Positions 5,784 to 40,974 of a stretch of 42,577 bases of DNA are shown in pieces. This DNA is from Hyphococcus sp. Its GTDB lineage: Bacteria > Pseudomonadota > Alphaproteobacteria > Caulobacterales > Parvularculaceae. Positions within the stretch are counted from its first letter, which is position 1; the number at the start of each line of letters is the position of its first letter. The notes under the pieces are model-generated. The model had not been told where the DNA came from, did not search any database, and saw nothing but the letters and a program-made list of their open reading frames with translations. The stretch lies in contig JANQOV010000090.1 in assembly GCA_028285645.1 (NCBI GenBank), forward strand, positions 1 through 42,577, in the 5' to 3' direction. The translations under genes and the position numbers were made by a program.

Positions 5784-5868
5784 GCCCTCACCTCCTTCGT
5801 TGGATTTTCGAGCGGCAAGACGTAGTTTTCCGTCTGCCGAACATCTCAAATGAGAACCTTGTCGCCGC

Positions 5869-22519: not shown

Positions 22520-22605
22520 AGCCCTACCTGAAAAAAGGTGAAAATTCATCCTGTTTCCATGATAGAGGCACCTAATCCGCAAGGTCCAATATGATTTGGC
22601 GATCC

Positions 22606-22632
22606 AAATCAATCTAATAATTAGATTGATTT
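22606..22632. promoter_or_regulatory. Perfect 27-bp palindrome, probable operator
   Basis: Arms AAATCAATCTAAT (22606-22618) and ATTAGATTGATTT (22620-22632) flank a single central A. It lies between the TorD-like pseudogene and the stub, 87 bases upstream of the stub's ATG. A related palindrome occupies the equivalent place at 40975-40995 in the intact locus. AT-rich perfect symmetry in a promoter position suggests a regulator site; it does not match the FNR consensus. Confidence 0.6.
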
Positions 22633-23329: not shown

Positions 23330-23860
23330 GTTTTTCTTATATCGATGGCCGGAACCGCCTTTTTTATCACCACAGCGTCTATGTTCACAAGCTAACGCGT
23401 CGCATGCTTGGCAATGAATAGCTTGTAGGGAAGCCAATTATTCTGGCTGGAGAACATTCAATATTCGACGTCCGCAACATCTATCATGTTTTGTCGGCGG
23501 GGCTACAGGTCGAGAAATTCGATCATTGCTGATCACAAAAATGGATCTCTTCGGGTGCCAAGGCCTCAACCGTACTACGAGCCATTTCGTACACTTGCGA
23601 TGCCAACTTCTTGAGGAAGCAGCAAATTGATAGCAGCAGGGCATCGACTCAAACGCTACGCCATCTCCCAAAATAGCAGTCTCATTATTATGCACTGCGA
23701 GGCGCAAATATAGGAACCGACAAGCTGATAAAGAGCTGTCGCTTCCTCAAACTGGTCATGTTGTGCGCGCAGGAGAGGCTTTGTCCGCCACACCCGCAAA
23801 TGCGCCGACTAGCTGTTGAATGTTGAAAGTACTTTGAGTCTCTTGGGAATAAGCAAATTG
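23330..23860. other. Gap: E1 leader region
   Basis: About 530 bases between the chaperone pseudogene and the E1 start. The E1-E2-E3 promoter should be here. Open frames on the minus strand (for example 23438-23707) have no ribosome site or recognisable family. No clear operator, terminator or mobile-element end was found. Part of it may be further decayed sequence from the duplicated locus. Confidence 0.35.
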
Positions 23861-26533
23861 ATGTCTCAAAACATGAGAACAGCGGCTATTGCGGACAGCA
23901 CTGATAACGATCCGCAAGAAACAGCGGACTGGCTGAACGCGCTTGACTCCGTTGCGAAGTTTGCTGGGCCTGAACGAGCGCGTTTTCTTTTGGAAAAACT
24001 GGAGCGCCGCGCGAAAGAAATGCGGATTGTTTCTGATATTCCGCCTTACTCGCCTTATCGTAACTCGATCTCTGTGTCGGAGCAGGCTGCGTTTCCCGGC
24101 GACATTGATATGGAAGAGCACATTACCTCAATCATTCGCTGGAATGCGCTGGCGATGGTGGTCCGCGCCAATCAGGCTTACGGCGAGCTGGGCGGACATA
24201 TCGCCAGCTATGCATCTGCGGCTGAAATCTTCGAGGTTGGCTTTAACCACTTTTTCCGCGGCGATGAGACGCCAGGTGGCGGAGACCTCATCTATTTCCA
24301 GCCGCATTCCGCGCCCGGCGTTTATGCGCGCGCATACCTCGAGGGACGCCTTACAGAAGAGAATTTGAAGCATTATCGGCAGGAGCTCTCCGGCGAGGGC
24401 TTATGTTCATATCCGCATCCCTGGCTCATGCCGGATTTCTGGCAGGTTCCGACGGGATCGATGGGTATCGGGCCGATTAACGCTGTCTATCAGGCGCGAT
24501 TCATGCGTTATCTGAGAGACCGAAACATTCTCGATACGGATGGACGTCATATTTGGGGCGTTTTCGGCGACGGCGAGATGGACGAACCGGAATCGATCGC
24601 GGGACTTTCTATTGCGGCGCGCGAAAATCTCGACAATCTGACCTTCGTCATCAATTGCAACTTGCAGCGCCTTGACGGACCGGTGCGCGGTAACGGCCAA
24701 ATCATTCCCGAACTTGAGAATTTATTCAAAGGCGCCGGCTGGAACGTCATCAAGGTCCTGTGGGGTTCGGAATGGGACGGCATTTTTGCGCGCGACAAAA
24801 ACCATGCATTGCTGAGCCGCTTCGCCGTGACGGTCGACGGCAAGTACCAAACCCTCGGCGCCAAAGACGGCGCCTATAATCTCAGTCATTTTTTTTCTGA
24901 AGACCCGGAAGTACAAGCGCTCGTTTCGCATATGTCGGATCGCGATATTGACGAGTTGAAACGCGGCGGCCATGACTTCCGGAAACTTTACGCCGCCTTT
25001 AGTGTCGCTAAGGAGACAAAAGGACGACCGACAGTCATTCTCGCCAAAACCAAGAAGGGATACGGCATGGGCGCGGCGGGCGAATCGCGCATGACGTCTC
25101 ACCAGGCGAAAAAGCTAAATGTCGACGCGCTTACTGCATTTCGCGACAAATTTTCGCTGCCGCTGACGAAGCAACAGATTGAGAATCTGGAGTTTTACAA
25201 GCCGGCGGAGGATTCAGCCGAGATCACCTATCTTCGCGAGCGGCGCAACGTCCTTGGCGGTTATGTGCCAAAGCGCCGCCGAAAGGCCGAATCCACAATT
25301 CTGCCGGCGCTGGAGAGCTATGGCGGCTTTGCTCTAAAAGCCGACGGCAAAGAGATGTCTACAACCGTCGCCGCGGTGCGCATGTTCAGTAATCTGATCA
25401 AGGATAAGGCGATCGGCGAAAAGATCGTCCCCATTGTCGCCGATGAAGCGCGCACCTTTGGCATGGCGAACCTATTCCGTCAGGTCGGCATCTATTCGCC
25501 TATCGGTCAGCTCTACGAACCGGAGGATTCCGGTTCCATGCTTTTTTACAAAGAAGCGAAGGACGGCCAACTTCTTGAAGAAGGCATAACAGAGGCGGGC
25601 GCAATTTCCTCTTGGGTGGCGGCGGCGACTTCCTACAGTGTCAATGGCGTTCCCATGCTGCCCTTCTATATCTATTACTCTATGTTCGGGTTCCAGCGCG
25701 TTGGCGATCTCATCTGGGCGGCGGCGGACCAGCGTGCGCGGGGATTCCTTCTTGGGGCAACCGCCGGCAAGACGACGCTTGCCGGCGAAGGCCTTCAGCA
25801 TCAGGACGGAACAAGCCATCTTGTTGCGTCGACCGTGCCGAACTGCCGTGCTTACGACCCCGGATACGCCTATGAACTGGCGGTCATCCTCGACCATGGC
25901 GCGCGAGCCATGCTGGAAAAGAATAAGGATGAGTTTTTTTACATCACCGTGATGAATGAAAACTATGCGCAACCCTCCATGCCAGGGGGCGTTGAAGACG
26001 ATATCATTCGCGGCATGCACCGGCTTGAAGGGGCCGACGATGCGCAGGTCCGACTGCTGGGAAGCGGCGCCATTTTGCCGGAGGTTGTCAAAGCAGCAAG
26101 GCTTTTAAAAAGCGATTGGGATATTGAGGCGGCGACCTTCAGCGTCACGAGTTATTCGGAACTCTCGCGCAATGCGCAAGGCATAGAGCGGCGCAAAATA
26201 TTTAGCGGCGCGACACCGCAAGAACAGTGCCATGTCGCGCGCATGCTTCAGGGTGATGCGCCAATTGTCGCCGCCAGCGATTATGTACGCGCCGTGCCGC
26301 AATTGATTGCGTCATACGTTAAGGGCCGCTTTGTTACACTTGGTACGGACGGGTTTGGCCGCAGCGATACGCGCAGTCAGCTGCGGAAGTTCTTTCAAGT
26401 CGATTGCCATCACATCGTTGTTGCCGCGCTCGCCGCCCTTGCCGATGAAGGCGTGATCACGTCGGCGCAATTAGGCAAAGCGCGGAAAAAGTACGGCATT
26501 GATACCAACGCGCCTGCTTCCTGGGCGGATTGA
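23861..26533 (+). CDS. aceE: AceE-type (homodimeric) 2-oxoacid dehydrogenase E1
   Basis: Thiamine-diphosphate E1 component, about 890 residues, collinear with E. coli AceE (887). The opening (ETADWLNALDSVAKFAG), SYPHPWLMPDFWQVPTGSMG, the ThDP motif GDGEMDEPES...NCNLQRLDGPV, DEARTFGMANLFRQVGIY, FYIYYSMFGFQRVGDL and the end LGTDGFGRSDTR are all present. TTG 23816, ATG 23861 and ATG 23873 are possible starts; none has a strong ribosome site, and 23861 is given. First gene of E1-E2-E3 in one direction. Alphaproteobacterial housekeeping pyruvate dehydrogenase usually has split alpha/beta E1, so this set is probably acquired and specialised. Placed beside a transhydroxylase, it may act on a quinone or ring-fission 2-oxo product, as proposed for the Azoarcus hydroxybenzoquinone dehydrogenase. 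Confidence 0.95.
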   Translation: MSQNMRTAAIADSTDNDPQETADWLNALDSVAKFAGPERARFLLEKLERRAKEMRIVSDIPPYSPYRNSISVSEQAAFPGDIDMEEHITSIIRWNALAMVVRANQAYGELGGHIASYASAAEIFEVGFNHFFRGDETPGGGDLIYFQPHSAPGVYARAYLEGRLTEENLKHYRQELSGEGLCSYPHPWLMPDFWQVPTGSMGIGPINAVYQARFMRYLRDRNILDTDGRHIWGVFGDGEMDEPESIAGLSIAARENLDNLTFVINCNLQRLDGPVRGNGQIIPELENLFKGAGWNVIKVLWGSEWDGIFARDKNHALLSRFAVTVDGKYQTLGAKDGAYNLSHFFSEDPEVQALVSHMSDRDIDELKRGGHDFRKLYAAFSVAKETKGRPTVILAKTKKGYGMGAAGESRMTSHQAKKLNVDALTAFRDKFSLPLTKQQIENLEFYKPAEDSAEITYLRERRNVLGGYVPKRRRKAESTILPALESYGGFALKADGKEMSTTVAAVRMFSNLIKDKAIGEKIVPIVADEARTFGMANLFRQVGIYSPIGQLYEPEDSGSMLFYKEAKDGQLLEEGITEAGAISSWVAAATSYSVNGVPMLPFYIYYSMFGFQRVGDLIWAAADQRARGFLLGATAGKTTLAGEGLQHQDGTSHLVASTVPNCRAYDPGYAYELAVILDHGARAMLEKNKDEFFYITVMNENYAQPSMPGGVEDDIIRGMHRLEGADDAQVRLLGSGAILPEVVKAARLLKSDWDIEAATFSVTSYSELSRNAQGIERRKIFSGATPQEQCHVARMLQGDAPIVAASDYVRAVPQLIASYVKGRFVTLGTDGFGRSDTRSQLRKFFQVDCHHIVVAALAALADEGVITSAQLGKARKKYGIDTNAPASWAD

Positions 26534-26546
26534 CGGACAGGTAAAA

Positions 26547-27842
26547 TTGGCCCAGCAGACGATCACCTTGCCGGATATCGGCGATTTTGAAGACGTTCCA
26601 GTTGCGGAGCTACTCGTCTCTCCAGGAGACCGCCTCGCAGTTGACGATCCGATTATCATGATCGAATCGGACAAGGCGTCGATGGAGGTGCCAGCGCCAC
26701 TGGCCGGAGAAGTCAAAGAGCTTCTGGTTTCTATTGGGGCGACAATCTCTGAAGGCGCGCCAATCATCGTCATTGATACCGACGTGGAAGCGGGCGAGAA
26801 AAGCGAGACGTCGTCGGATGGGACGGCGACGGATGATGCGACGGAAGCTGCGGGGGCAAAACCAGCTAAGCCGCCGCCCATTAATGAAACACAACAATCC
26901 GCGCCAGATACGCCAGCACAGGAAACGCGATCGCCAGCAGCGACGGGAATGACCCATGCGAGTCCATCCGTCCGCGTCTTTGCGCGTGAGTTGGGCGTAG
27001 ATCTCGCCCAGGTTAAGGCGAGCGGGCCGAAAGGACGTATATTAAGAGAAGACGTTTCCAATCTCGTAAAATCGGTTATTGCCAGGAGCGACGTTGCGGG
27101 CGGGCGCCCTGGCGGCCTGACGCCATGGCCGAAAGTCGATTTCGAGAAATACGGGGACACCGAGCGTGTTTCTCTCACCCGCATTCAGAAAATGTCGAGC
27201 GCTAATCTCGCGCGTAACTGGGCTGTTATCCCCCATGTAACGAATTTCGACGAAACCGACATCACTGATCTCGAAGCGTTCCGAAAATCCGTGAATGCGG
27301 ATTACAAAGATGACGCCATTAAAGTGACGATGGTCGCCTTTTTGATCAAGGCGTCCGCCATGGCGCTCAAAGCCTATCCGCGTTTCAACGCTTCGCTCGA
27401 CGGCGAAGAACTTGTTTACAAAAAATATGTTCATGTTGGCTTTGCCGCCGACACGCCCAACGGGCTTGTTGTGCCAGTCGTGCGCGATTGCGACAAAAAA
27501 GGGCTTGTAGAAATCGCCCGTGACATGGCCTTACTTGCGGACAAAGCAAGGAAATACGCTCTCGCTCCAAGCGACATGCAGGGCGGATGCTTTTCGGTCT
27601 CATCCCTTGGCGGAATCGGCGGTACGAACTTCACGCCCATTATCAATGCGCCTGAAGTCGCCATTCTTGGCGCGACCAGGGCGACAACCAAACCGGTCTG
27701 GGACGGCGCCGCCTTTGCGCCGCGACTTGTCCAGCCGCTAAGTCTTTCCTGGGATCACCGCGTCATCGACGGCGTTGCCGCGGCGGTGTTCCTGAAGAAA
27801 ATCTGCGAGCTTCTCGCCGATTTCCGGCGCGCGGCGCTTTAG
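26547..27842 (+). CDS. aceF: Dihydrolipoyl acyltransferase E2
   Basis: E2 core of the same complex, about 431 residues. One lipoyl domain (lipoyl Lys in IESDKASMEVPAP), an acidic Ala/Pro/Thr linker, a peripheral-subunit-binding domain (SPSVRVFARELGVDLAQVKA), then the catalytic acyltransferase domain ending with the active-site SWDHRVIDGVAAAVF (HxxxDG). Start is taken as TTG 26547, 13 bases after the E1 stop and just after GGACAGG; no ATG lies near. E. coli AceF has three lipoyl domains, so this is the short form. Catalytic residues are intact. It transfers the acyl group from E1 to CoA (or releases it), with E3 encoded 13 bases downstream. Confidence 0.93.
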   Translation: MAQQTITLPDIGDFEDVPVAELLVSPGDRLAVDDPIIMIESDKASMEVPAPLAGEVKELLVSIGATISEGAPIIVIDTDVEAGEKSETSSDGTATDDATEAAGAKPAKPPPINETQQSAPDTPAQETRSPAATGMTHASPSVRVFARELGVDLAQVKASGPKGRILREDVSNLVKSVIARSDVAGGRPGGLTPWPKVDFEKYGDTERVSLTRIQKMSSANLARNWAVIPHVTNFDETDITDLEAFRKSVNADYKDDAIKVTMVAFLIKASAMALKAYPRFNASLDGEELVYKKYVHVGFAADTPNGLVVPVVRDCDKKGLVEIARDMALLADKARKYALAPSDMQGGCFSVSSLGGIGGTNFTPIINAPEVAILGATRATTKPVWDGAAFAPRLVQPLSLSWDHRVIDGVAAAVFLKKICELLADFRRAAL

Positions 27843-27855
27843 GGGACCAAGCGGC

Positions 27856-29601
27856 ATGGCTGTTCAGGAAATCAAGGTTCCCGATATCGGGAATTTCGAA
27901 GACATTCCGGTGATTGAAATCCTCATCGCGGTCGGAGACGCCGTGGAGGTTGAGCAGGGTCTTGTTACGGTCGAATCCGATAAGGCGACGATGGATATTC
28001 CCTCCCCTATTGCGGGAAGGATTGCCTCAATCGAGATTGCGGTCGGCGACGCCGTAAGCGAAGGCGCTTTGCTAGCCACGATTGAAACCGCTGAAACGAC
28101 CGAAACGGAGGCCGCTGCGGAAGCAGCGCCGTCGACGGCCTCAGAACCAGCGGCATCGCCCGATCCTATTGTTGCGCCGACGGCGAACACCGCAGACGCC
28201 GACTTTGACGTCGCCGTAATCGGCGGCGGGCCTGGCGGTTACTCCGCTGCGTTTCGCGCCGCCGATCTCGGCATGAAAGTCGCTTTGATTGACAAAAACA
28301 ATACGCTCGGCGGCGTGTGCCTCAATGTCGGCTGCATTCCTTCCAAAGCGCTGTTACATGTGGCGGAGGTGTCGAGAGAAGCGCAGGCCCTTGCCGCGCA
28401 CGGCGTTTCTTTCGACGCGCCGGTTTTCGATCTCGACAAATTACGATACTTTAAAAACCAGACAATTTCTAAACTGACGACCGGTCTCGCCGGCATGGCG
28501 AAAGCCCGCAAGGTCGATGTTATTCAGGGAACAGCGCGTTTTCGTGATGCATCCTGTCTTGTCGTCTCTGAAAGAGATGACGCCGAGCGCAGCATTACAT
28601 TTAAAAATTGTATCATCGCCGCTGGATCAGTCGTCGCCCATTTGTCGTTCTTGCCGGATGATCCGCGCATCGTCGATTCTACCGGCGCTCTTGAACTCCC
28701 TTTCGTTCCGGACCGGATGCTGGTCATCGGCGGCGGCATTATCGGTCTTGAAATGGCGACCGTTTACAGCGCGCTCGGTGCGAAAGTCGATATTGTCGAG
28801 GCGCTGGACGACATTCTCGCCGGCGTCGACAAAGACCTCATCGCGATCTGGAAAACGACAAACAAGGAGCGCATCGGCAACCTCTTTCTTTCCACGCGCG
28901 TTCAATCAATTGAACAACATGACGATGGGCTTCTCGTTCACGTCGAAGGCGAGAATAACCCGCAAAAGTATGATTTTGTTCTTGAGGCCGCAGGGCGCAC
29001 GCCCGACAGCGCCGCGCTGGCGCTCGATGCGGCGGGCGTTGAGCTGGCGAACGGGTTCATAAAAGTGGACAATCAAATGCGCACAAGCGCCGCGAAAATT
29101 TTTGCCATCGGCGATATCGCCGGACCGCCCATGCTGGCGCACAAGGCGGTCCACGAAGGGCATGTGGCGGCAGAAGCAGCGGCAGGTGAAAAAGCAGATT
29201 TCGACGCGCAAGTTATTCCGTCGGTCGCGTACACGGATCCTGAAATCGCCTGGGCCGGCATTACGGAAGCGCAAGCGCGTAGGCAAAACATAGCTATCAA
29301 AGTGGCGAAGTTTCCCTGGGCGGCCTCAGGTCGGGCGATCGCAAACGGCGCCGATTACGGTCAGACGAAGCTGATCTTTGCAAATGATACGGGCCGCCTG
29401 ATCGGCGGGGCTGTTATCGGGCCTAATGCTGGCGACATGATCGGCGAAATTTGCCTCGCCATCGAGATGGGCGCAGATGCAATCGATATTGGAAAAACCA
29501 TTCATCCGCATCCTACACTTGGCGAAACAATCGGCATGGCTGCCGAAGTCGCAAAGGGCGTCTGCACGGATTTACCACCGCAAGTAAAACAAAAACGATA
29601 A
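27856..29601 (+). CDS. lpdA: Dihydrolipoyl dehydrogenase E3 with N-terminal lipoyl domain
   Basis: Flavoprotein of 581 residues that reoxidises dihydrolipoyl groups with NAD+. It carries an N-terminal lipoyl domain (VESDKATMDIPSP) very like that of the E2, then an Ala/Thr linker, the FAD fold (VIGGGPGGYSAAFRAADLG), the redox disulfide GGVCLNVGCIPSKALL, the NAD fold (LVIGGGIIGLEMATVYSALG), the second FAD motif IFAIGDIAGPPMLAHKA and the dimer-interface His-Glu in HPHPTLGETIGMA. ATG 27856 follows AGGGGACCAAGCGGC. The third gene of the operon; the lipoyl fusion is typical of E3s paired with AceE-type complexes in beta- and gammaproteobacteria. Complete and probably functional. Confidence 0.95.
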   Translation: MAVQEIKVPDIGNFEDIPVIEILIAVGDAVEVEQGLVTVESDKATMDIPSPIAGRIASIEIAVGDAVSEGALLATIETAETTETEAAAEAAPSTASEPAASPDPIVAPTANTADADFDVAVIGGGPGGYSAAFRAADLGMKVALIDKNNTLGGVCLNVGCIPSKALLHVAEVSREAQALAAHGVSFDAPVFDLDKLRYFKNQTISKLTTGLAGMAKARKVDVIQGTARFRDASCLVVSERDDAERSITFKNCIIAAGSVVAHLSFLPDDPRIVDSTGALELPFVPDRMLVIGGGIIGLEMATVYSALGAKVDIVEALDDILAGVDKDLIAIWKTTNKERIGNLFLSTRVQSIEQHDDGLLVHVEGENNPQKYDFVLEAAGRTPDSAALALDAAGVELANGFIKVDNQMRTSAAKIFAIGDIAGPPMLAHKAVHEGHVAAEAAAGEKADFDAQVIPSVAYTDPEIAWAGITEAQARRQNIAIKVAKFPWAASGRAIANGADYGQTKLIFANDTGRLIGGAVIGPNAGDMIGEICLAIEMGADAIDIGKTIHPHPTLGETIGMAAEVAKGVCTDLPPQVKQKR

Positions 29602-29702: not shown

Positions 29703-30326
29703 TTAGTTGCCTGCCGGCAAAGTGTCGATTGGCGCATAGCGGGGCCGATATATGTTCATTTTCCCGGAAATCTTGGCGCGCCAATTCGCGTAAGGCTCAA
29801 ATCCGGGTTGCTCGCGGCACATCTTCTCAGTTTCCGCATAGATCTCTTCGTTTGATTTCGTCAGGTCAAGCGGAACCAGGAAAGGCTGTGGAAAGTACCA
29901 TTCCGTATCAACAAAGAGCTCGATCATGTTGCCGTCGGGGTCGAGGCAATAAATACTCCAGGAAACACCGTGCGACCCAACAAGCTTGATCTCTATATTT
30001 TCAGCGAGCAGAACTTTATGCAGCGCTTTCAGGTCTTGCAGGTTCCCGACCCGGAATGAAATCTGGTTGATCACGGGTGGCAAGCCGGGATCGATCGGAT
30101 TAAGCGGTATGTTTTCGGGCTTGCCTGTCACCAGAGCGAGCTGGTGATGGTCCATCGGATCGCGGGAGAGAAAAACCAGCGTTAATTCGCCGAGATTGCC
30201 TCGGTCAGTCACCGTAAACCCTAGAATTCGGGTATAGAAGTCCACCATTTTGTCCAAGTCGGATACGGTAAAGCCGAGATGACTGAACATGAGATTCGGG
30301 GCGGGATATTGAGGTAAAGCGTCCAT
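29703..30326 (-). CDS. VOC-family protein downstream of the transhydroxylase
   Basis: About 207 residues of the vicinal-oxygen-chelate fold. His16 (LMFSHLGFTVSDLDKMVDFY) and the terminal Glu (CLDPDGNMIELFVD) correspond to extradiol-type metal ligands, but the middle His is replaced: VINQISFRV here, GLEHIAYTY in the paralogue at 8219. DHHQLALV is retained. It may therefore bind metal differently or act as a lyase or isomerase rather than an oxygenase. Start ATG 30326 follows a strong AAAGGAGG; ATG 30359 lies directly against the upstream stop but has no ribosome site. Last gene of the transhydroxylase operon, so probably acts on a product of that enzyme. Confidence 0.88.
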   Translation of the reverse strand: MDALPQYPAPNLMFSHLGFTVSDLDKMVDFYTRILGFTVTDRGNLGELTLVFLSRDPMDHHQLALVTGKPENIPLNPIDPGLPPVINQISFRVGNLQDLKALHKVLLAENIEIKLVGSHGVSWSIYCLDPDGNMIELFVDTEWYFPQPFLVPLDLTKSNEEIYAETEKMCREQPGFEPYANWRAKISGKMNIYRPRYAPIDTLPAGN

Positions 30327-30359
30327 CCATCTTCCTCCTTTCAATTTCAAATCCGCCAT

Positions 30360-31193
30360 TCAATTCAAGGGGCAAAGGCCAATATAGCGGCTTTCCGAAA
30401 TATCGACTTCCGACGTGAACTGACCTTTGGCGTGTTTAATTGAAACCTCAAATGAACCGTTTTCCGCCGACAAGCCGTCGATTTTGAAATCGCCAAAGGC
30501 GTCGGTTCGTGTTGTCGCGATCACGCGCCCGCCTTGTGACAAGGTGACTTCAGCATCTTCGACAGCATCGTCGTTCGTCTCGCACGTCACAGTGCCCCCG
30601 ATAAACAGGGACGTCATCAAATGGAGGTTTTTGTAATAAACGCGCGGTTTCGTGTTCAGCTCCGGTTTGAGAACTTCAAGCCCTTCTTGCGATGCGATGT
30701 TTTTCATCGCGGCGTCTTCCGTCTTGATCGACTTCAACGCGCCGGTAGGACAAGCTTGCTCGGCGCGCGTTCTGGTCCAGCCATTATCGAGAAGATGCGC
30801 ATCGAAGATCCACTTTTGTGGAATCTGCCGCTCTTCATTCCAATAAACGGCGCCATAGGGACAAGCGTCAACGATCTGTTTCTGGCCCTTTGATTTGACG
30901 GGATCAATCAGGACAATGCCGTCCGACCGCTTAGTGACTGCGCCATTCTCGGCGACTTTCATGCACGGCGCATCATCGCAATGATTGCACATGGTCGGCA
31001 TAAAATTCGCCTCAACCATAGGCGCTGAGCCGCGCTCCTTGGTTTCCATCTTGATCCAGTTATGGCCATGATCTGGCTGCGGCGCAGCGTAACCAGGAAA
31101 GTCATTGCCGACATGCTCATCCTTGGTCGCAATGAAGCAGTTATAGCAATTCTCGCATCGCTCCACGTCGACGATCATGTTCCACTTCTTCAT
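30360..31193 (-). CDS. Transhydroxylase / resorcinol-hydroxylase-type beta subunit (Fe-S)
   Basis: A 277-residue subunit with an N-terminal ferredoxin-like part and a C-terminal transthyretin-like beta domain (from about residue 200: GGTVTCETNDDAVEDAEV, DAFGDFKIDGL). The connecting segment GLEVLKPELNTKPRVYYKNL is almost the same as I recall for Pelobacter acidigallici pyrogallol-phloroglucinol transhydroxylase beta. Cluster Cys are 13, 16, 19, 69, 72, 77, 111 and 148. The usual fourth Cys of the first group is Thr23, and the later CxxC group reads QKWIFDAHLL, so the three clusters of the model enzyme are probably reduced to two. ATG 31193 overlaps the alpha-subunit stop (ATGA), showing tight coupling. 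It partners the alpha subunit in the cytoplasm. Confidence 0.92.
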   Translation of the reverse strand: MKKWNMIVDVERCENCYNCFIATKDEHVGNDFPGYAAPQPDHGHNWIKMETKERGSAPMVEANFMPTMCNHCDDAPCMKVAENGAVTKRSDGIVLIDPVKSKGQKQIVDACPYGAVYWNEERQIPQKWIFDAHLLDNGWTRTRAEQACPTGALKSIKTEDAAMKNIASQEGLEVLKPELNTKPRVYYKNLHLMTSLFIGGTVTCETNDDAVEDAEVTLSQGGRVIATTRTDAFGDFKIDGLSAENGSFEVSIKHAKGQFTSEVDISESRYIGLCPLN

Positions 31194-34141
31194 GCCACAG
31201 CCCCCACTGGAGACTGCCATTTCTCGATCTCAATGAGACACGAGTTCGGCCCCATACTGCTCACCTGCGAGCCTTGGGATCGGTCGTTGGTCAAAAGATT
31301 GACGCAGCCGCCGATATCGGTCGAGCCGGGCTTGCCATTCGATTTGTAGACTGCCGACGATTCATAACTGTGAACGACGCCTGGACGAAGGCGCGAGGTC
31401 ACATACGCCGCACACACCACCGACCCGCGGTCATTATACAGTCGGATCAGGTCGTCATGTTCGATGCCGCGGGTTTCGGCGTCCTCTTTGCTGATGCGCA
31501 CGCGCCAATAGTAATGGCCGTCAACAAGCAAGCGGTGGTCATAGATATCGTTGATAGAAGAGTCCTTGCCGTCGCCCTGCGTATGAAAGCTGTATCGCGA
31601 GTGGGCTGAAAGCAATTGCAGCGGATATTTTCCGAGCAGTTCTTCCGTATGCGTCCCCTCCCAGCTTGGCATGTAGGTATTGATCGCCGGACGGTCTGCA
31701 TCGTCGATTTTCTTAAGGCTTTCCGGTACAAACTCGATCCTGCCTGATTGCGTTTGCAGCCCTTCTAACCATTTGCCGCTATATTCCGCCGGAAGCGGAT
31801 GCGGCTCCGGCACGTCTTTCTTACGGCCTTCATAATACCAGCGATAAGCGGTCGGAGCGCGCAAGGCCGGCTTTTCGGCCGGGACGACGAGATACCCTTT
31901 CTTGAGAAACTCAGTCCAGGACATCAAGTCGATTGCATCTGATCCCTCATAGATGCGCCGGCACCAGTCGATTTCGGTCATGCCTTCGGAAAACACCGAC
32001 GCCAGATCCATTTTCTTGGCGAGTTCGAGGAAAATTTGATAGTCGGATTTGGATTCGCCCATCGGCTCGATGCATTTATGTTGCATCATGATGATTCGGT
32101 GGTTGAGCTGCGAATAACAATGGTGGCCGTAGCCGCCCGCCGATGCCCAGGCGCTGATGTCATCCCGCTCGAAATTGGTGCAGGCGGGAAGAATGATATC
32201 GGCATATTGCGACTCCCCTTCAAACCAGATGGCCTGATTGACCACGCAGTCCAGCTCTTCTGACTGATACATCTTCACCCAGCGGTTCGTATTCGTCATT
32301 GTACCGAAAGAAGAGCTGCCATATTTGTAGAGCATCTTAATCTTTGAACAGCCGGGCGCCGGGTAGAAGAACGGAATGAACTGGCCTTCCTTGGATGTCG
32401 GGTCGGTGAAATAGCCCGAGGCCTGCCCGTCGAGGATTGCGTCCGGCAATTGCAGACGCGGCACCATTTGCTTGACCGGATTCATTGTCAGCACATGCGG
32501 CACACGCTGATAGTTGTTGACCGCCGAGCCTGTGAAGGCGAGATCTCCAGAAATACCGCCCTCGGCATAACCCGGAAACCAGAAGCTGTAATCAAGCGGC
32601 GCCCCTAGCTGCATATTGCCGAAATTGACGCCCGGCCGGCCAATGCCTTGCATCGCCATCAGGATGATCATCATCCGCGCCCATTGCACGCCGGTCGCTG
32701 AACGGCAAGCGCCGCCAAAAGCATTGCCGAAACCGCCCGCCGCCAGATAGGTCTTGCGCTTACCCCATTCGCGCGCGAGCGCACGGATATCGCGGGCTGG
32801 AACGCCGGTTTCCTTTTCCGCCCATTCCGGCGTCTTCGGCGTGCCGTCCGTCGACCCGTTGATGTAGCGCGCCCATTCGTCAAACCCAGTCGTGCGGTTT
32901 TCAACGAAGGACTTGTCGTAAAGATTTTCTGCAATCCAGACATGGCAGATCGCTTGCGCCAGCGCCGGATCCGTGCCTGGGCGCGGCGCAATCCACTTGC
33001 CTTTGAGCAGAGAGGCCGTGTGGTTCCAATGAGGATCGATATGTACAAATTTGACGCCGGCCTCCTTCGCCCAAAGGCGGCGGATTGTCCCTTCATATGC
33101 TGCGTAACTGCCGCTAGTGGCTTCCGGATCGCTGGACCAGAAGACCATCATCTCGCATTCCTTCAGAATGTCCTCGACCTGACCGTAAATTTCACCGACG
33201 CCGAGGCGCATGCTGTGCCCCCAATGGTGCATGGCGCCCCAATACCAGCCTTCCCAGCTGTCCGGATTGAGGTGAACGCGAGTGAAGCCGATCGTATTGA
33301 AGAAGCGCATCATCGCGCTCAGCCAGTAGCCGACATTCCCCCAGCTGTGATGAGAGCCGTGCGCTAGCGCGAGAGCCCCAGGGCCGTATTTCTGCTTGGA
33401 GCGCATGATCTCATTGGCCACGATCGTCGAAGCTTCATCCCAGCTGATGCGTTCATAGCCGGAGATACCGCGCATATGAGGATTGCGTTCGCCCTCAGGC
33501 TCGAAGTCCACGCGCTTCATCGGGTAGAGATTGCGGTTCGGCGAGTAGACTAACGACTTAAAGGACAGGCCATAAGGCGCCGTCGTTGTTTGCCGCGGGG
33601 GCGTGAAGGACTTCCCGCGCGCTTCGATGGTCCAGGACTCCGCATCCTTTTCGTTGAACTCAATCGGCGTCATCCGGACGATCTTATCGTCCTTTACATA
33701 TACGTGAACCGGACCTCCATTCGTATTGTTGACATAGCGCTTTTCCCCGTTGCCGAGATCCTCGCCCATTTCCCACCAGACCGACTGCCCTAAGCTGACG
33801 ATTTCGGTAAGCCAGGAGCTAAGGTCGTCCGGGCCGATCATCCCCATCTTAAAGTTTTTCATCGCATCAATGCGAACGTGCCAATTCGGCTTTGGGTTAA
33901 GAATGCGCAAAGCAGTGCGCTCGTCCTTGAAAAAGACCGTAACATCAGCTTCCGGATGAACGCCGGCGCCGCTTGAAATTTTTCCGTTTCGGAAGGCTAT
34001 GTAACGCCCAACAGAATTGTCAGCCAGTTTCAATTGAGCGACCATGTCGCGTTCTTTCAGCCGCTCTCGAAAACGGGGATGACGCCAGGCCGTCAATCGC
34101 AATGCCTGAACGACTCCAAATAGAACGACAGGGAGCTTCAC
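31190..34141 (-). CDS. Transhydroxylase / resorcinol-hydroxylase-type molybdopterin alpha subunit with SCP2-like N-domain
   Basis: A 983-residue bis-MGD molybdoenzyme of the DMSO-reductase family, closest in motifs to pyrogallol-phloroglucinol transhydroxylase (875 aa) and resorcinol hydroxylase. From residue ~137 it follows that enzyme throughout. His264, Tyr272, Asp294 and Ser295 (SHHSWGNVGY; NPDSWEGWYWG) sit at exactly the spacing of the model's catalytic His144, Tyr152, Asp174 and Mo-ligand Ser175, and Tyr518/Tyr525 lie in PLDYSFWFPGYAEGG. As in the model, there is no N-terminal Fe-S cysteine motif and no Tat signal. Residues ~15-125 are an extra domain resembling SCP2 sterol-carrier folds (RHPRFRERL, GRYIAFRNGKI, ADVTVFFKD). 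GTG 34141 follows GGGAGGGCCGGC. It probably hydroxylates a (poly)hydroxybenzene without O2. Confidence 0.93.
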   Translation of the reverse strand: MKLPVVLFGVVQALRLTAWRHPRFRERLKERDMVAQLKLADNSVGRYIAFRNGKISSGAGVHPEADVTVFFKDERTALRILNPKPNWHVRIDAMKNFKMGMIGPDDLSSWLTEIVSLGQSVWWEMGEDLGNGEKRYVNNTNGGPVHVYVKDDKIVRMTPIEFNEKDAESWTIEARGKSFTPPRQTTTAPYGLSFKSLVYSPNRNLYPMKRVDFEPEGERNPHMRGISGYERISWDEASTIVANEIMRSKQKYGPGALALAHGSHHSWGNVGYWLSAMMRFFNTIGFTRVHLNPDSWEGWYWGAMHHWGHSMRLGVGEIYGQVEDILKECEMMVFWSSDPEATSGSYAAYEGTIRRLWAKEAGVKFVHIDPHWNHTASLLKGKWIAPRPGTDPALAQAICHVWIAENLYDKSFVENRTTGFDEWARYINGSTDGTPKTPEWAEKETGVPARDIRALAREWGKRKTYLAAGGFGNAFGGACRSATGVQWARMMIILMAMQGIGRPGVNFGNMQLGAPLDYSFWFPGYAEGGISGDLAFTGSAVNNYQRVPHVLTMNPVKQMVPRLQLPDAILDGQASGYFTDPTSKEGQFIPFFYPAPGCSKIKMLYKYGSSSFGTMTNTNRWVKMYQSEELDCVVNQAIWFEGESQYADIILPACTNFERDDISAWASAGGYGHHCYSQLNHRIIMMQHKCIEPMGESKSDYQIFLELAKKMDLASVFSEGMTEIDWCRRIYEGSDAIDLMSWTEFLKKGYLVVPAEKPALRAPTAYRWYYEGRKKDVPEPHPLPAEYSGKWLEGLQTQSGRIEFVPESLKKIDDADRPAINTYMPSWEGTHTEELLGKYPLQLLSAHSRYSFHTQGDGKDSSINDIYDHRLLVDGHYYWRVRISKEDAETRGIEHDDLIRLYNDRGSVVCAAYVTSRLRPGVVHSYESSAVYKSNGKPGSTDIGGCVNLLTNDRSQGSQVSSMGPNSCLIEIEKWQSPVGAVA

Positions 34142-34204
34142 GCCGGCCCTCCCATGTCCGAAAACTCATTGCAGGCTCTCTCAGCGTAGGGCGAATAATT
34201 CAAC

Positions 34205-34852
34205 TCAAACCCCGTGCGCTTTCCGAGCGCAATCCTGTTCAACAAGCCAATTGTCCGCACTCTTAAGGAGTTCACGCTCTTCCGGACTGAACGCAACAAT
34301 CGCGTCTTCTTTGATAATTTGATTGGTCTCATGCAGAACATATGCAAGCGACCGAAATTCGCATGGCAAACTTTTGAGTTTCTCAGTGTCGATTACCGTT
34401 TCCAGCGCGCAATCCGGATCGACTGCATCCATTCGATCCTTCTCGTAAATCGCCGTCCAATGGACAATCTGCCAGCGACCGCTCCGCTTCTCCACGAAAT
34501 GAAAAAAACGGCACCAGGTCGTTACATCAACCAGATCCTGACTTGAACCAAGCGCCACCCGCATCAATATGGTTACATCAGTATCTACGAGCGCCCGCCC
34601 TCCGCGAACCTTAACCCTTGGATGGCCCAGAACGTGTTTGACACCGCCGATCTGTCCGCCCTCATGCGCATCCCTGCAGCCCGCGATAAAGCCCGTAGCA
34701 CTGCCCTCAAACCAACTGATTGCAACCGTCGCATCTGGCGCATAAAGAGCCGCAAGACGCTCCCACTCACCGCGATCGCGATGAGCGAACCCGTGAATCA
34801 GATCCCTGATCTGCTCAACATCAATCAGTGATGCATGATCGCCGCCAATCAT
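34205..34852 (-). CDS. SnoaL-like (NTF2-fold) protein heading the transhydroxylase operon
   Basis: About 215 residues. The N-terminal ~130 form a SnoaL-type NTF2-like domain (IDVEQIRDLIHGFAHRDRGEW, LYAPDATVAISWFEG, ending WQIVHWTAIYEKDRMD), followed by a ~80-residue tail (LPCEFRSLAYVLHETNQIIK) seen in some aromatic-catabolism members. ATG 34852 is preceded by GGGAGCTGTTG; a longer GTG start at 34924 is possible. It ends 63 bases before the alpha-subunit start. SnoaL-like proteins act as cyclases, isomerases or dehydratases, or bind polyphenolic ligands. Linkage to the molybdoenzyme suggests it handles the same aromatic substrate. No catalytic residue can be fixed with confidence. Confidence 0.85.
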   Translation of the reverse strand: MIGGDHASLIDVEQIRDLIHGFAHRDRGEWERLAALYAPDATVAISWFEGSATGFIAGCRDAHEGGQIGGVKHVLGHPRVKVRGGRALVDTDVTILMRVALGSSQDLVDVTTWCRFFHFVEKRSGRWQIVHWTAIYEKDRMDAVDPDCALETVIDTEKLKSLPCEFRSLAYVLHETNQIIKEDAIVAFSPEERELLKSADNWLVEQDCARKAHGV

Positions 34853-34904
34853 CAACAGCTCCCGCGCCCGCATAAAGAACGCATAGTAATGATAATCAAA
34901 ATCT

Positions 34905-35066
34905 CTATAGACATATTGAGACACGCTCTCCTATGCCGAACTCATGTGCTCGGGACGTCTCCGCTACTTTTGGCGAGACGATGATTTGCTCGACCGAATC
35001 GTTGCGTTGATTCTGAGCGCTGGCCGCTCCAAGAAAACATAGCAGCGCGGTGAAAACAGCTGCCAT
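34905..35066 (-). pseudogene. N-terminal remnant of a TonB-dependent receptor (53 codons)
   Basis: ATG 35066 begins a signal peptide (MAAVFTALLCFLGAASA) followed by QNQRNDSVEQIIVSPKV, the mature end and TonB-box pattern of alphaproteobacterial receptors (compare ...VEEIIVTA...). The frame ends at TAG 34905 after 53 codons, and no plug or barrel follows. The remainder was probably lost when the SnoaL-transhydroxylase operon came to lie here, or it is a relic with a new tail. Alternatively a small exported peptide; less likely. Confidence 0.5.
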
Positions 35067-35939: not shown

Positions 35940-36734
35940 ATGCTGAAACTATACCATAACGACATGTCGGTCTGTGCACAGAAGGTTCGTCTTGCGCTGG
36001 CCGAACTGGAACTGGAATGGGAAAACCATCACATGACGCTGCGCGGAAATGCGCAGTTCGACCCGGAATTTCTGAAAATCAGCCCTAAGGGACTCGTCCC
36101 TGTGCTGATCGACGGCGACCACGCCTTCAATGAATCTACGATCATCAACGAATACCTCGCCGACACTTATGGCGCAGGCGAATTGTTACCCGCAACGCCG
36201 GTGGAAAGAGCGCGCATGCGCTGGTGGACACGACAGCTCGATGAAGACATCCACCGCGCGACGTCGGTCGTCAGTATTTCAGTGGCCTTTATTCACCAGT
36301 TTCGCACCGCCCCGCCAAAGGCGGTCAGTGAGCACCTTAAACAGACGCCGGAAGAGCAACTACGCGACTTGAAGCGGCTGGCGCTCGATACGGGTCTCGA
36401 CAATCCGGAGCTGCCCTGGTCGATGCGCCGAATGAACAAACTTTTTGGCGACATGGAAACCCAGCTTAAAAAAACTGAATGGTTGACCGGAGACACCATC
36501 TCGCTCGCAGATGTCGGCTTTACGTCCTACACTTTGCGGTTCAAGCATTTGCGTCAGGATGCGCTCTTTGCCAACCGCCCGAAACTCGCCGAATGGTTCG
36601 AGCGCATGCAGGCCAGACCAAGTTATAAGGTCGCAATCGGCGACTGGCTCAATGACGACTACCTCAATCTCAAAAACAAGACGGGAAGCGAGGCGGCGCC
36701 GCGTCTGACAGAGATGCTCAGCGAGACTTACTAG
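35940..36734 (+). CDS. Glutathione S-transferase, paralogue 2
   Basis: A 264-residue GST, same length as that at 4202-4996 and matching it closely at the N-terminus (MLKLYHNDMSVCAQKVRLAL), with the same Ser-x-Cys active-site pair, PKGLVPVLIDGD and ESTIINEYLADTYG. The C-domain keeps MRWWTRQLDEDIH and SLADVGFTSY. ATG 35940 follows AGAGGAGAACAGGA. It is alone on the plus strand between two minus-strand molybdoenzyme blocks. Retention of two such GSTs near the aromatic-pathway genes suggests two glutathione-dependent steps or substrates, for instance ether or halogen removal before ring hydroxylation; inference only. Confidence 0.92.
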   Translation: MLKLYHNDMSVCAQKVRLALAELELEWENHHMTLRGNAQFDPEFLKISPKGLVPVLIDGDHAFNESTIINEYLADTYGAGELLPATPVERARMRWWTRQLDEDIHRATSVVSISVAFIHQFRTAPPKAVSEHLKQTPEEQLRDLKRLALDTGLDNPELPWSMRRMNKLFGDMETQLKKTEWLTGDTISLADVGFTSYTLRFKHLRQDALFANRPKLAEWFERMQARPSYKVAIGDWLNDDYLNLKNKTGSEAAPRLTEMLSETY

Positions 36735-38196: not shown

Positions 38197-40878
38197 TTAG
38201 CCGACCTGTTCGCGTTGCCGAACCGGTTGGCGAACCGCACGGACAAGCTCATCTTCGAGAGGCGGGTTTGGGCTCAGAGGTATGACATGAGCCGTCTCAA
38301 CATCAGAGCGCAGCGCCGCTCCCGTCCATTTCTCAACCTCAATGATAACGGTGTTCCAGCCAATATGACCACCGCCCGTGGGCTGCGATCCTTTTAGAAC
38401 ATTGGCGCAACCGCCCATGTCGATTCCTGTTTCTTCATCAAGGTCGACGCGCGAGCCCTGACCTAGAATCGTCACGCCCGGCATGACTAACGGCGTCACC
38501 CATACGGTGCGAATGACTTTGCCCCATTGGCTTCGGACCAGGACGGTATCGCCGCTTTTGATATTACGCGGCTCCGCATCGATAGGGTTCATGATAAATT
38601 CGTGCGGAAACAATTCGCGCATTACGGTCGCGTTGTCGAAGAAGCCATGGGCCCTGCGCGGCATGTGGATGTTGTAAAGCTGCAGCGGATATTCACCCTT
38701 GACCCCGTTCTCATAGTCGCTGAACGTCGCTTCGTAACCTTCCACTGGCGGCTCATAAGTGGGAATCGGACGGATTTTGTCCCAGCCCAGCGTATTGACC
38801 ATGTTCGCCAATCGCTGACAGTGAATTTCAAGCTTTCCGCTCTGTGTCTGCAGCGGGTTCGCTTCCGGATCGTCACGGAAATCCTTTAAAAATACGAAAC
38901 CATGATTATCGCCCGCTTCGCGGGGGATGTGATAGATTCCCTTTTCTTTGAATTCCTTAACAGTGATGCGGCCCTGCTGAGGCTCTCCCTCAACATCGAA
39001 CTCTTTCAAATCATCTTCAGTGATCGTTACCAACGGCTCCAGGGTCTTGCCGTCATCGCCCATAACTTTCGCATCGGCGACCTGGTTAAAGATCTCCTGT
39101 TTCCATGGCCAAGGTTCGACAATTTTTGGATCAATGCCCAGGCGCTTGCATAGTTCGACACCGATCCACAGATCATCCTTGCACTCGAAATACGGCTCCA
39201 TAATCTTCGAATGCCAGAGCAATTGCTCACGATATCCTATGCACACATTACCGTCACGCTCCCACCGCGACGTCACCGGAAGCACGAGGTCGGAATAAAT
39301 TGCATCCGGGTTCATGAACATATTCTGCGTGACCACGAACTCGACTTTTCGGTGCGCCTCAATCGCCTCAAGGGTATTCGGCAGCTGATTTACGCGCGAA
39401 CCATGCGCATGATAGATCATGCGGACGTCAAGCGGCACATCATTGCCATCAACACCTCTGTATTTGCCCTCTAACACACATGTGTGAATCTGATTGATAT
39501 TCACACAACCCTTGGTCGGCAGCAGAATGAAACCGCCAGCCAATTGATTCTCTGCAAGGGGATTGAGAACCGGCTCTGCGCGCAGATGTGAATTGACGTA
39601 AGAACGAGAATTTTGTCCTTGCACCAGTTGCGGGCCGCCATTGGTGCCGAAATGATGGTGTACGCCCAACTGGCTGTGCGGTTTGCCGAGATGCCCGGTC
39701 ATCGCCGCTAGCGCAAGAAACGCCTGAGGTAATGTGTCTGCATTGTTGGCGCGCGCAACACCGCCGGAAGTGCATATTGCGACATGCTCTTCTTTTGCGA
39801 TCAAGCGCGCAAGCCATTTGATGCGCTCGGGCGGGAGGCCGCAAATCTTCGAAGCCCATTCAGCGTCACGCGGCATGCCGTCGTTATTGCCGAGCACGTA
39901 GTCCATCAGATTATCGTCGGGATCAGCCTCTTCAGGCACATGATCCCTATCGAAACCAACTGTACAGCGGTTAAGGAAATCCCAGTCGATCAGCGGATTG
40001 GTTTCCGGATCGTCCTCAACCAGCAAAGTGTGGATCATGCCCAATATCATGGCCTGATCAGTGCCTGGGCGGACCGGTAGCCACTCATCAGTGAGCATCT
40101 CATAGGTAGGATTATAAAAAGGATCTACCGCAACAAAACGAGCGCCGTTCTTTTTTGCCTGGTGATAGGTATATGCCGGCAGTCCCGCCTGACTCCAGAC
40201 AGGGTTCGTGCCCCACATCAAAAACAGTTTCGTTTCCACCATATCGAACCGGTCATTCCAGTTCGGGTAGCCAAAGCCGGTAAAAAAGTGAGCCGGCAAC
40301 CATGACCCGGTAGAGTGACCGCCCCACTGGTCTGTAAAACCGCCATAGGCGCCGAGCGCGCGCGCCGTAATTGTTCCGATCCATGGCGCCAAGATAGATT
40401 CGTTGCCATAGCTTTCTTTAACGCGCTTGAGTTCGTTCGCCAGAATATCCAGCGCTTCGTCCCAGGAAATGCGCACCCATTCGTCCTTGCCGCGCAACTC
40501 CTTTTTGCCGCCGCCCGGCTCCCAGTTCTTTCGAATCATCGGGTATTTGAGACGATCAGCGCCGAGCAGCCACATGCGCAAGGATTGCCCCCGCGCGCAG
40601 GCGCGCAATTGCGGCGTATTCCAACTGTCTTCGATGGCGTCATCGGTGCCCATACGCACGACGACCCCATCCTCAACATAAGCCTTGTTAAATCCCTTAC
40701 TGCCACAATCGGGCCAGCAATCTGCGGGTATCCATTTACCCTTGCCGCCGCCGGGGCCGAGGAGGCTTTTGGAGCGCGGCTCTTTTCTCAAGCCATAGCC
40801 AATGCCGCCGGCATTACGGACGGCCGCCGCCCATGCTTCAATCGAAGATTTCGATGTCACTGTGGTTTCAACAGTCAT
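38197..40878 (-). CDS. DMSO-reductase-family molybdopterin oxidoreductase, catalytic subunit
   Basis: An 893-residue bis-MGD enzyme. Start ATG 40878 follows CAGGAGAGCGGT; an earlier ATG at 40911 lacks a site. The N-terminal cluster motif is DCWPDCGSKG...RACARGQS: Cys54, Cys58 and Cys94 are present, but the third Cys of the usual C-x3-C-x3-C is Gly62, so the FS0 cluster is altered or absent. The Mo-pocket region reads WGGHSTGSWLPAHFF, with Ser candidates for the Mo ligand. DmsA-like blocks follow (MWGTNPVWSQAGLPAYTYHQ, LPVRPGTDQAMILGMIH) and a MopB C-domain (LVMPGVTILGQGSR). There is no Tat signal, so it is cytoplasmic. The chaperone gene is upstream; no B subunit is adjacent. Substrate unknown; hydroxyhydroquinone oxidation is one candidate. 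Confidence 0.93.
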   Translation of the reverse strand: MTVETTVTSKSSIEAWAAAVRNAGGIGYGLRKEPRSKSLLGPGGGKGKWIPADCWPDCGSKGFNKAYVEDGVVVRMGTDDAIEDSWNTPQLRACARGQSLRMWLLGADRLKYPMIRKNWEPGGGKKELRGKDEWVRISWDEALDILANELKRVKESYGNESILAPWIGTITARALGAYGGFTDQWGGHSTGSWLPAHFFTGFGYPNWNDRFDMVETKLFLMWGTNPVWSQAGLPAYTYHQAKKNGARFVAVDPFYNPTYEMLTDEWLPVRPGTDQAMILGMIHTLLVEDDPETNPLIDWDFLNRCTVGFDRDHVPEEADPDDNLMDYVLGNNDGMPRDAEWASKICGLPPERIKWLARLIAKEEHVAICTSGGVARANNADTLPQAFLALAAMTGHLGKPHSQLGVHHHFGTNGGPQLVQGQNSRSYVNSHLRAEPVLNPLAENQLAGGFILLPTKGCVNINQIHTCVLEGKYRGVDGNDVPLDVRMIYHAHGSRVNQLPNTLEAIEAHRKVEFVVTQNMFMNPDAIYSDLVLPVTSRWERDGNVCIGYREQLLWHSKIMEPYFECKDDLWIGVELCKRLGIDPKIVEPWPWKQEIFNQVADAKVMGDDGKTLEPLVTITEDDLKEFDVEGEPQQGRITVKEFKEKGIYHIPREAGDNHGFVFLKDFRDDPEANPLQTQSGKLEIHCQRLANMVNTLGWDKIRPIPTYEPPVEGYEATFSDYENGVKGEYPLQLYNIHMPRRAHGFFDNATVMRELFPHEFIMNPIDAEPRNIKSGDTVLVRSQWGKVIRTVWVTPLVMPGVTILGQGSRVDLDEETGIDMGGCANVLKGSQPTGGGHIGWNTVIIEVEKWTGAALRSDVETAHVIPLSPNPPLEDELVRAVRQPVRQREQVG

Positions 40879-40974
40879 ACCGCTCTCCTGATTTCGTAGC
40901 TTATGATTCACATTGCGCTGTATAGAAAATAAAGACTTGGCGGTGCGATATCCAATACGAATTGGCTATGATGA

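Follow-up and report, generated by a model that had tools for sequence, protein, structure and literature searches.

A predicted molybdenum/tungsten hydroxylase of the RhL/PgtL family with a two-cluster beta subunit and candidate extradiol cleavage genes in a Hyphococcus genome

The window analyzed here is the whole of a 42,577-nt stretch of DNA (contig C141; GenBank JANQOV010000090.1) from a metagenome-assembled genome (MAG) of the alphaproteobacterium Hyphococcus sp. (GCA_028285645.1; 3.55 Mb, 163 contigs, 86.6% complete), and its genes of interest encode the alpha and beta subunits of a predicted molybdenum- or tungsten-dependent (Mo/W) hydroxylase related to resorcinol hydroxylase (RhL), PgtL and pyrogallol-phloroglucinol transhydroxylase (TH). 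They lie on the minus strand between positions 34924 and 29703 in a closely spaced run of four open reading frames, ordered SnoaL-like, alpha, beta and VOC, with a 63-bp gap between the SnoaL-like and alpha genes, a 31-bp overlap between alpha and beta, and beta and VOC abutting. This operon, proposed in a first-pass annotation of the same DNA, is real, with its first gene starting at 34924 (the earlier boundary of 34852 being a later in-frame ATG), and the E1-E2-E3 genes, moaA, TorD/DmsD-type chaperone, second molybdoenzyme and malic enzyme reported around it were all found in the window.

The alpha subunit and its place in the family

Structurally, the alpha subunit finds its best solved match in the TH large subunit (4v4c_A, E 9e-292, far beyond chance), with 54% identity to the Pelobacter TH, 58% to the alpha of Aromatoleum anaerobium (locus L047) and 75% to that of locus L007, and it carries the family domain PF21423 (AhtL-like_1st, E 2.3e-29) together with the molybdopterin domains PF00384 and PF01568. 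A scan of genome contigs gave 254 stretches encoding alpha relatives, of which 80 were kept as loci (L001–L006, the matches in the window's own genome, stand outside all locus counts), and the window, these 80 loci and TH were aligned across the active site, with positions given in TH numbering. Residues H144, D174, S175 and Y404 are the same in all 81 non-TH rows, of which the window is one, and this gives the window alpha a predicted serine metal ligand next to H144, D174 and Y404; serine is also the metal ligand of RhL and PgtL according to PMC10100899. Other positions vary across the same 81 rows: 71 rows have Y and 10 have H at position 152, 80 have Y and one has F at position 560, and 65 have Y and 16 have W at position 153, with F (43), H (15), L (13), V (5), E (3) or W (1) at position 354. 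The window alpha has W for R153, F for W354 (with one extra residue just before it) and A for C557, and so departs from the full active site of TH in the strict sense; the catalytic roles of these residues, and the weight of W354, R153 and C557, are those assigned from the TH structure. The first-pass annotation had claimed the complete TH catalytic set at exact spacing, which is borne out for H144, Y152, D174, S175, Y404 and Y560, but not for the three changed residues nor for the beta subunit, where eight of twelve cluster cysteines are kept. Judged by these sequence features, the alpha-beta pair is very probably a Mo/W-bisPGD hydroxylase of the RhL/PgtL family, and somewhat less assuredly, though still likely, it adds a hydroxyl to a resorcinol-type ring without O2.

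Phylogenetically (84-row alpha tree, quick method with SH-aLRT support; TH, L056 and L057 are long branches), the window alpha groups with L007, from a Sphingobium MAG, and L008, and ten more rows join them in a 13-row clade (support 97). This clade is sister (94) to a 25-row clade (100) holding L047, Rhizobium, Paraburkholderia and two alpha copies from the relative G034, and TH stands beside L028 on a long branch, its exact position being unsure. We take L047 to be the RhLS of Aromatoleum (Azoarcus) anaerobium LuFRes1, judging from strain and gene content. The window resembles it in an alpha identity that extends over residues 3–980, N-terminal region included, in F at position 354 and in the core residues; unlike the window, RhLS keeps C557, and the window alpha lies outside the RhLS clade. 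The flanks of L047 showed no FAA hydrolase. By sequence, the window alpha is neither an RhL nor a TH in the strict sense. The separate clade beside RhL is one part of what the first-pass annotation had named as speaking against its own proposal, which also called for that clade to act on other substrates.

The family reaches well past Pelobacter and Azoarcus, to which the same annotation had mainly confined it: the 80 kept relatives span Alpha-, Beta- and Gammaproteobacteria, "Deltaproteobacteria"/Desulfobacterales, Chloroflexota and Zixibacteria, and published work may already cover part of this spread. By sampling, the gene is rare, occurring in 9 of 385 genomes of the class, the window's own included, and, at E≤1e-100, in 1 of 398 of the phylum, which is its own. 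Among 59 related genomes a true alpha occurs in one, G034, in two copies with 58–59% identity.

Ahead of its catalytic domains, alpha has an N-terminal region of about 120–134 residues that is common to 80 of 80 relatives (matches start at or before query residue 20), whereas the TH chain is without it. An AlphaFold2 model of the first 140 residues, built from 40 sequences (mean predicted local distance difference test, pLDDT, 89.7; predicted template modelling score, pTM, 0.77), gave 36 Foldseek matches in the Protein Data Bank (PDB) at E≤0.001, to SCP2 proteins, UbiJ-SCP2, alkylsulfatases or YjcS, at modest TM-scores of 0.37–0.58 (by query length); alkylsulfatases and YjcS align through an SCP2-like C-terminal domain. 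The Pfam SCP2 signal is weak, with 6 of 40 members at E≤0.1 and the window not among them. The modelled fold suggests a hydrophobic partner, either a quinone or a resorcinol bearing an alkyl or aryl substituent.

A predicted two-cluster beta subunit

The beta subunit matches PF13247, plus PF13620 just at the cut-off, and its best solved structure is the TH beta chain (4v4c_B, E 1.3e-71), with which it can be aligned nearly end to end. It keeps C13, C16, C19, C68, C71, C76, C109 and C149, 8 of the 12 TH cluster cysteines, and has T, W, D and A for C23, C126, C129 and C145, so that all four expected ligands of one cluster are gone and the twelve-cysteine, three-[4Fe-4S] pattern of strict TH is broken. 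This reading uses the usual ferredoxin pattern, which we assume applies, with C23/C126/C129/C145 holding one cluster and C13/C16/C19/C149 and C68/C71/C76/C109 the other two.

Across 83 beta rows (L034 has none; L038 and L055 were scored from tblastn frames), the C126/C129 pair reads CxxC in 17 and WxxD in 65, and one row, the incomplete beta of L022, was unreadable and left unscored. The CxxC rows are TH and 16 loci from "Deltaproteobacteria"/Desulfobacterota-type records, Chloroflexota and Zixibacteria; the WxxD rows are 62 loci whose records name Alpha-, Beta-, Gamma- or plain Proteobacteria or families of these, the window and the two G034 copies. On the alpha tree the step from CxxC to WxxD is a single change, and the 11 loci added later, from three plasmid records and eight genomes of the class, are without exception WxxD too. 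RhLS shares with the window both a WxxD beta without C23 and the SCP2-fold region, and unlike the window it keeps C145. Cluster loss peculiar to the window can be ruled out, as in part or whole it is common to the 65 WxxD rows, and the SCP2-fold domain is ruled out as its cause: the domain does not track the loss, because CxxC loci have it too. Of the 65 WxxD rows, 11 retain the cysteine at C23 and 33 that at C145, whereas 23 have lost all four ligands; because C23 and C145 persist in part of these rows, their sequences indicate that the CxxC pair was probably switched first and the remaining ligands eroded afterwards. In this fold the lost cluster would presumably sit between the other two, and because of that middle placement the Fe-S relay of a WxxD beta may be cut, which fits poorly with the electron export assumed for such an enzyme.

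As a separate observation, C16, a presumed ligand of a second cluster, is replaced by serine in six alphaproteobacterial betas (L009, L010, L011, L012, L021 and L022), a further erosion of the relay.

Neighbouring genes and a candidate lower operon

Table 1 Features of the window: the alpha-beta operon, the candidate lower operon and the E1-E2-E3 genes
Feature	Position	Strand	Basis
Alpha subunit, 983 aa, GTG start; predicted RhL/PgtL-family Mo/W-bisPGD hydroxylase	31190-34141	-	PF21423, PF00384, PF01568
Predicted SCP2-fold N-terminal domain of alpha	33722-34141	-	AlphaFold2 and Foldseek
Beta subunit, 286 aa, predicted two-cluster Fe-S protein, W137..D140 in place of CxxC	30360-31220	-	4v4c_B match, cysteine mapping
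VOC-family protein, metal-site residues H-Q-E	29703-30359	-	PF00903
SnoaL-like protein upstream of alpha	34205-34924	-	PF13577
One-domain VOC, H-H-E triad, candidate ring-cleavage dioxygenase	8219-8809	-	PF00903
DUF4440/SnoaL-like protein	7802-8191	-	PF14534, PF13474
FAA hydrolase, candidate C-C hydrolase (putative acylpyruvase type)	6923-7786	-	PF01557
Beta-keto acid cleavage enzyme (BKACE)	5869-6807	-	PF05853
SDR oxidoreductase, overlapping the BKACE gene	5028-5891	-	PF13561
Glutathione transferase (GST)	4202-4996	-	PF02798
E1 (23816-26533), E2 (26499-27842) and E3 (27856-29601)	23816-29601	+	PF17831, PF00198, PF07992

Elsewhere in the window, the VOC, SnoaL-like, FAA hydrolase, BKACE, SDR and GST genes run in one direction from 8809 to 4202 (gaps of 27, 15 and 115 bp, an overlap, then 31 bp) and form a probable operon with the VOC as its first gene. 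This VOC has the 2-His-1-Glu iron site of type I extradiol dioxygenases in a single domain; its best matches among solved structures are distant (9u42, E 3e-7), and in Novosphingobium SG919 (L056) a homologue immediately follows beta. Among the 59 relatives, G034 alone has a BKACE similar to that of the window (77%), none of the others having one above 60%, and the next-best anywhere (61%) is a paralogue in the window's own genome. A stretch of about 8 kb in G034 holds this BKACE and, one major facilitator superfamily (MFS) gene further on, beta and then alpha, together with an H-H-E VOC and an FAA hydrolase that is 51% identical to the one in the window. The SDR has FabG-like proteins as its best solved structures, and phloroglucinol reductase was not among the 60 of 670 structure matches listed for it.

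With the window left out, 19 of 64 WxxD rows have an FAA hydrolase flanking alpha and 17 of 64 have a VOC whose H-H-E triad is intact, vs 0 of 16 CxxC loci in either case; with the window counted and gains and losses pooled, the alpha tree requires at least nine and 10 changes, respectively. Both families also crowd around alpha, with VOC homologues making up 29 of 633 genes within 5 kb vs 4 of 437 beyond (Fisher p ~0.0005) and FAA hydrolases 20 of 633 vs 1 of 437 (p ~0.0004). The FAA hydrolase counts are possibly low, the greedy gene caller having missed the L118 gene that tblastn found, and several of the matches are weak (L017, E 2e-10; L056, E 4e-7). Among the 11 loci fetched later, seven have an H-H-E VOC and seven an FAA hydrolase, and annotated plasmids of Ensifer, Burkholderia and Salipiger carry VOC and FAA hydrolase genes near alpha-beta. 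Genes for an acyl-CoA synthetase, a FadL-like protein and OmpW lie near the Rhizobium and Paraburkholderia relatives.

The CxxC loci keep other company. Four of them (L013, L014, L024 and L028) match a cyclase and a 3-hydroxyacyl-CoA dehydrogenase, three of the four also a BKACE (L024 and L014 were checked with Pfam), and L053 and L071 match the cyclase; these are genes of the phloroglucinol route as set out in PMC10470551. Three WxxD loci (L073, L077 and L086) carry phloroglucinol-route genes too, and therefore the CxxC/WxxD split is not strictly a functional one.

As for the upper operon, its VOC has a homologue right after beta in L007 and others at a distance from alpha of 1.2 kb in L025 and 3.8 kb in L029, and its SnoaL-like gene has a 35%-identical counterpart just before alpha in L029, the sole tblastn match among the 80 loci.

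Several further features were noted around these genes. The two GSTs of the window, in the lower operon and at 35940-36734 (+), are paralogous (143 of 264 residues identical) and lie one on each side of the region. The second DMSO-reductase-family enzyme (38197-40911, minus strand) has three cysteines (65, 69 and 105) in its first 130 residues and is probably without the usual N-terminal cluster; it is absent from 59 of 59 relatives at E≤1e-60. A 148-aa frame (22166-22612, minus strand) beside a DmsB-like gene (21562-22173) matches the N-terminal ~100 residues and the C-terminal 13 (12 of 13 identical) of this enzyme, with the middle gone, and is either a paralogue remnant or an assembly artefact. 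Near alpha-beta in L013, L020, L035, L052, L059 and L072 there is a recurring family, represented in L013 (8337-10529) by a 730-aa molybdoenzyme that carries an Fe4S4 domain. In G034 (L118:15966-18748), sulfatase and formylglycine-generating-type genes near alpha-beta hint at sulfated phenols. Upstream of alpha-beta in L007 (2456-5914) there are GCV_T-domain and formyltransferase genes, as in the tetrahydrofolate-dependent O-demethylation of lignin aromatics of the LigM kind.

Candidate routes and their meaning for the family

Functionally, we posit that the alpha-beta enzyme would place a hydroxyl, taken from water or another phenol, on a meta-dihydroxylated (resorcinol-type) ring without O2, that the VOC-type extradiol dioxygenase of the lower operon would open the trihydroxylated product using O2, that the FAA hydrolase would cleave the 2,4-dioxo acid so formed, giving pyruvate and a 3-oxo acid, and that BKACE would convert the 3-oxo acid and acetyl-CoA to acetoacetate and an acyl-CoA. 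A Mo/W hydroxylase of resorcinol-type rings with an extradiol, FAA hydrolase and BKACE lower route is the best explanation we can offer, though it falls a little short of probable; it draws on family membership, a conserved core site, a predicted two-cluster beta and the gene linkage in relatives, all read from sequence, and on the modelled SCP2 fold. The hybrid in full, an O2-free hydroxylation feeding an O2-dependent cleavage, is a more tentative proposal, as its substrate, step order and O2 use are inferred. Aerobic extradiol pathways for trihydroxybenzenes, of the orcinol type, use a flavin monooxygenase for the first hydroxylation; the window resembles them in placing an extradiol-type VOC and an FAA hydrolase within the same run of genes, and differs in that a Mo/W enzyme rather than a flavin monooxygenase would perform that step. 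A search of the window's own genome (86.6% complete) for a hydroxyquinol dioxygenase (PF04444) gave none. The same genome has narGHJI, all four genes above cut-off, two NarK-like genes below cut-off, and a haem-copper oxidase gene in pieces, which makes both oxygen regimes possible. The low-oxygen polyphenol catabolism suggested by the first-pass annotation is thus plausible, given these genes and an RhL/TH-family hydroxylase, minus its link to E1-E2-E3. The route chemistry would suit 5-alkylresorcinols, and such substrates also agree with the SCP2-fold domain and with the genes for an acyl-CoA synthetase, a FadL-like protein and OmpW around the Rhizobium and Paraburkholderia relatives.

Several observations weigh against the hybrid. 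In the window the lower operon lies ~22 kb from alpha, and the VOC that does adjoin beta is without the second metal histidine (H-Q-E) and might therefore not act as a dioxygenase. Within the window's clade, none of the other 12 rows showed an FAA hydrolase or an H-H-E VOC in its flanks, and the closest relative of the window, L007, has instead a thiolase, a CoA-transferase and an H-Q-E VOC. SnoaL-like genes (2 of 633 within 5 kb vs 2 of 437 beyond) and GSTs (2 of 633 vs 1 of 437) do not crowd near alpha. The linkage counts themselves call for caution, as the VOC and FAA hydrolase queries included genes chosen near alpha (L118, L065 and L049), which biases toward kin there; the Fisher values ignore kinship, and many of the loci with VOC and FAA hydrolase are close Paraburkholderia or Rhizobium relatives, as are two of the 11 later loci (L127 and L128); and the flanks of CxxC loci are shorter (mean 12.5 vs 15.8 kb).

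An unlikely alternative is a fully anaerobic, nitrate-linked pathway as in Aromatoleum, in which hydroxyhydroquinone would be oxidized to hydroxybenzoquinone and cleaved by E1-E2-E3 to malate and acetate, the malic enzyme then using the malate, as reportedly laid out for A. anaerobium resorcinol degradation by Darley in 2007. The 58% identity to the A. anaerobium alpha, whose alpha-beta genes adjoin E1-E2-E3, the presence of E1-E2-E3 and a malic enzyme in the window, and narGHJI in the genome all speak for it. The window alpha, however, lies outside the 25-row RhL clade, and the E1 differs in architecture: it is an AceE-type homodimer that scores above cut-off both for TIGR03186 ("AKGDH_not_PDH", 1525.8 bits, cut-off 1408.3) and for aceE (1404.7), with the former higher, unlike the neighbouring E1 of L047, in which alpha and beta parts are fused (PF00676 and Transket_pyr), so that the linked fused E1-E2-E3 of strict RhLS is missing. 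Orthologues of this E1 (84–86%) occur in 2 of 59 relatives, G020, in which no true alpha was found, and G034, where the complex is on a different contig from either alpha, and the own genome holds other E1_dh-family genes. We therefore reject E1-E2-E3 as the dedicated partner of alpha-beta, a link that the first-pass annotation had implied, and regard it as probably a separate accessory module; the better-linked partners, which that annotation did not list, are the FAA hydrolase, BKACE and VOC genes.

A pyrogallol-phloroglucinol transhydroxylase feeding a reductive phloroglucinol route is unlikely, and more so than the Aromatoleum-type pathway. The enzyme shares the TH core site, and SDR and BKACE genes stand side by side in the window as in L013, L014 and L028, which also match the cyclase and 3-hydroxyacyl-CoA dehydrogenase, and such genes do occur in the WxxD loci L073, L077 and L086; adjacent genes of these two kinds also recall the PGR-DPGC-TfD-TAL pathway in PMC10470551. 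Against it, a Pfam scan of 30 window proteins gave neither a PF04199 cyclase nor a 3-hydroxyacyl-CoA dehydrogenase, the window BKACE is just 44–46% identical to those of L013, L014 and L028, and the beta is without the third cluster, and we set a plain TH with this route aside as less likely on these grounds. Slightly more credible, though still decidedly unlikely, is that alpha-beta acts on another substrate class, or reductively in a dehydroxylation, with the core site alone conserved: the distinct clade and the changes at R153, W354 and C557, positions variable in the family, would agree with this, but H144, D174, S175 and Y404 do not vary in any non-TH row and the neighbouring genes point to oxidative ring catabolism. 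That the region is a decaying or chimeric accessory stretch with no working pathway seems very improbable; the MAG is incomplete and fragmented, a shortened molybdoenzyme remnant is present, and alpha and the second molybdoenzyme are missing from 58 and 59 of 59 relatives, yet the alpha, beta and VOC frames are intact and closely packed, their order is the same in L007, and the BKACE is common to the window and the sole congener with alpha, G034.

The TH reaction is redox-neutral. RhL is described, in PMC10100899, as drawing electrons from resorcinol for respiration. The beta counts contradict what these two reactions would lead one to expect, the electron-exporting RhL type having fewer Fe-S clusters than the redox-neutral TH, with one CxxC to WxxD change covering every scoreable row. 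Neither the WxxD split nor an RhL-extradiol hybrid was met in the literature searched, a negative that carries little weight, as key primary papers were outside that search. Returning to the Mo/W hydroxylase with an extradiol lower route, a speculative and, taken whole, doubtful extension is that the large proteobacterial WxxD branch lost what is presumably the middle relay cluster and carries the SCP2-fold domain, with the enzyme either making a redox-neutral transfer or passing electrons to a lipophilic quinone, as part of an O2-sparing hybrid route for hydrophobic resorcinols in many species. If the extradiol linkage is true, Paraburkholderia, Rhizobium and others would rely on a Mo/W enzyme in place of the expected flavin monooxygenase, and would save O2 and NADH at low oxygen.

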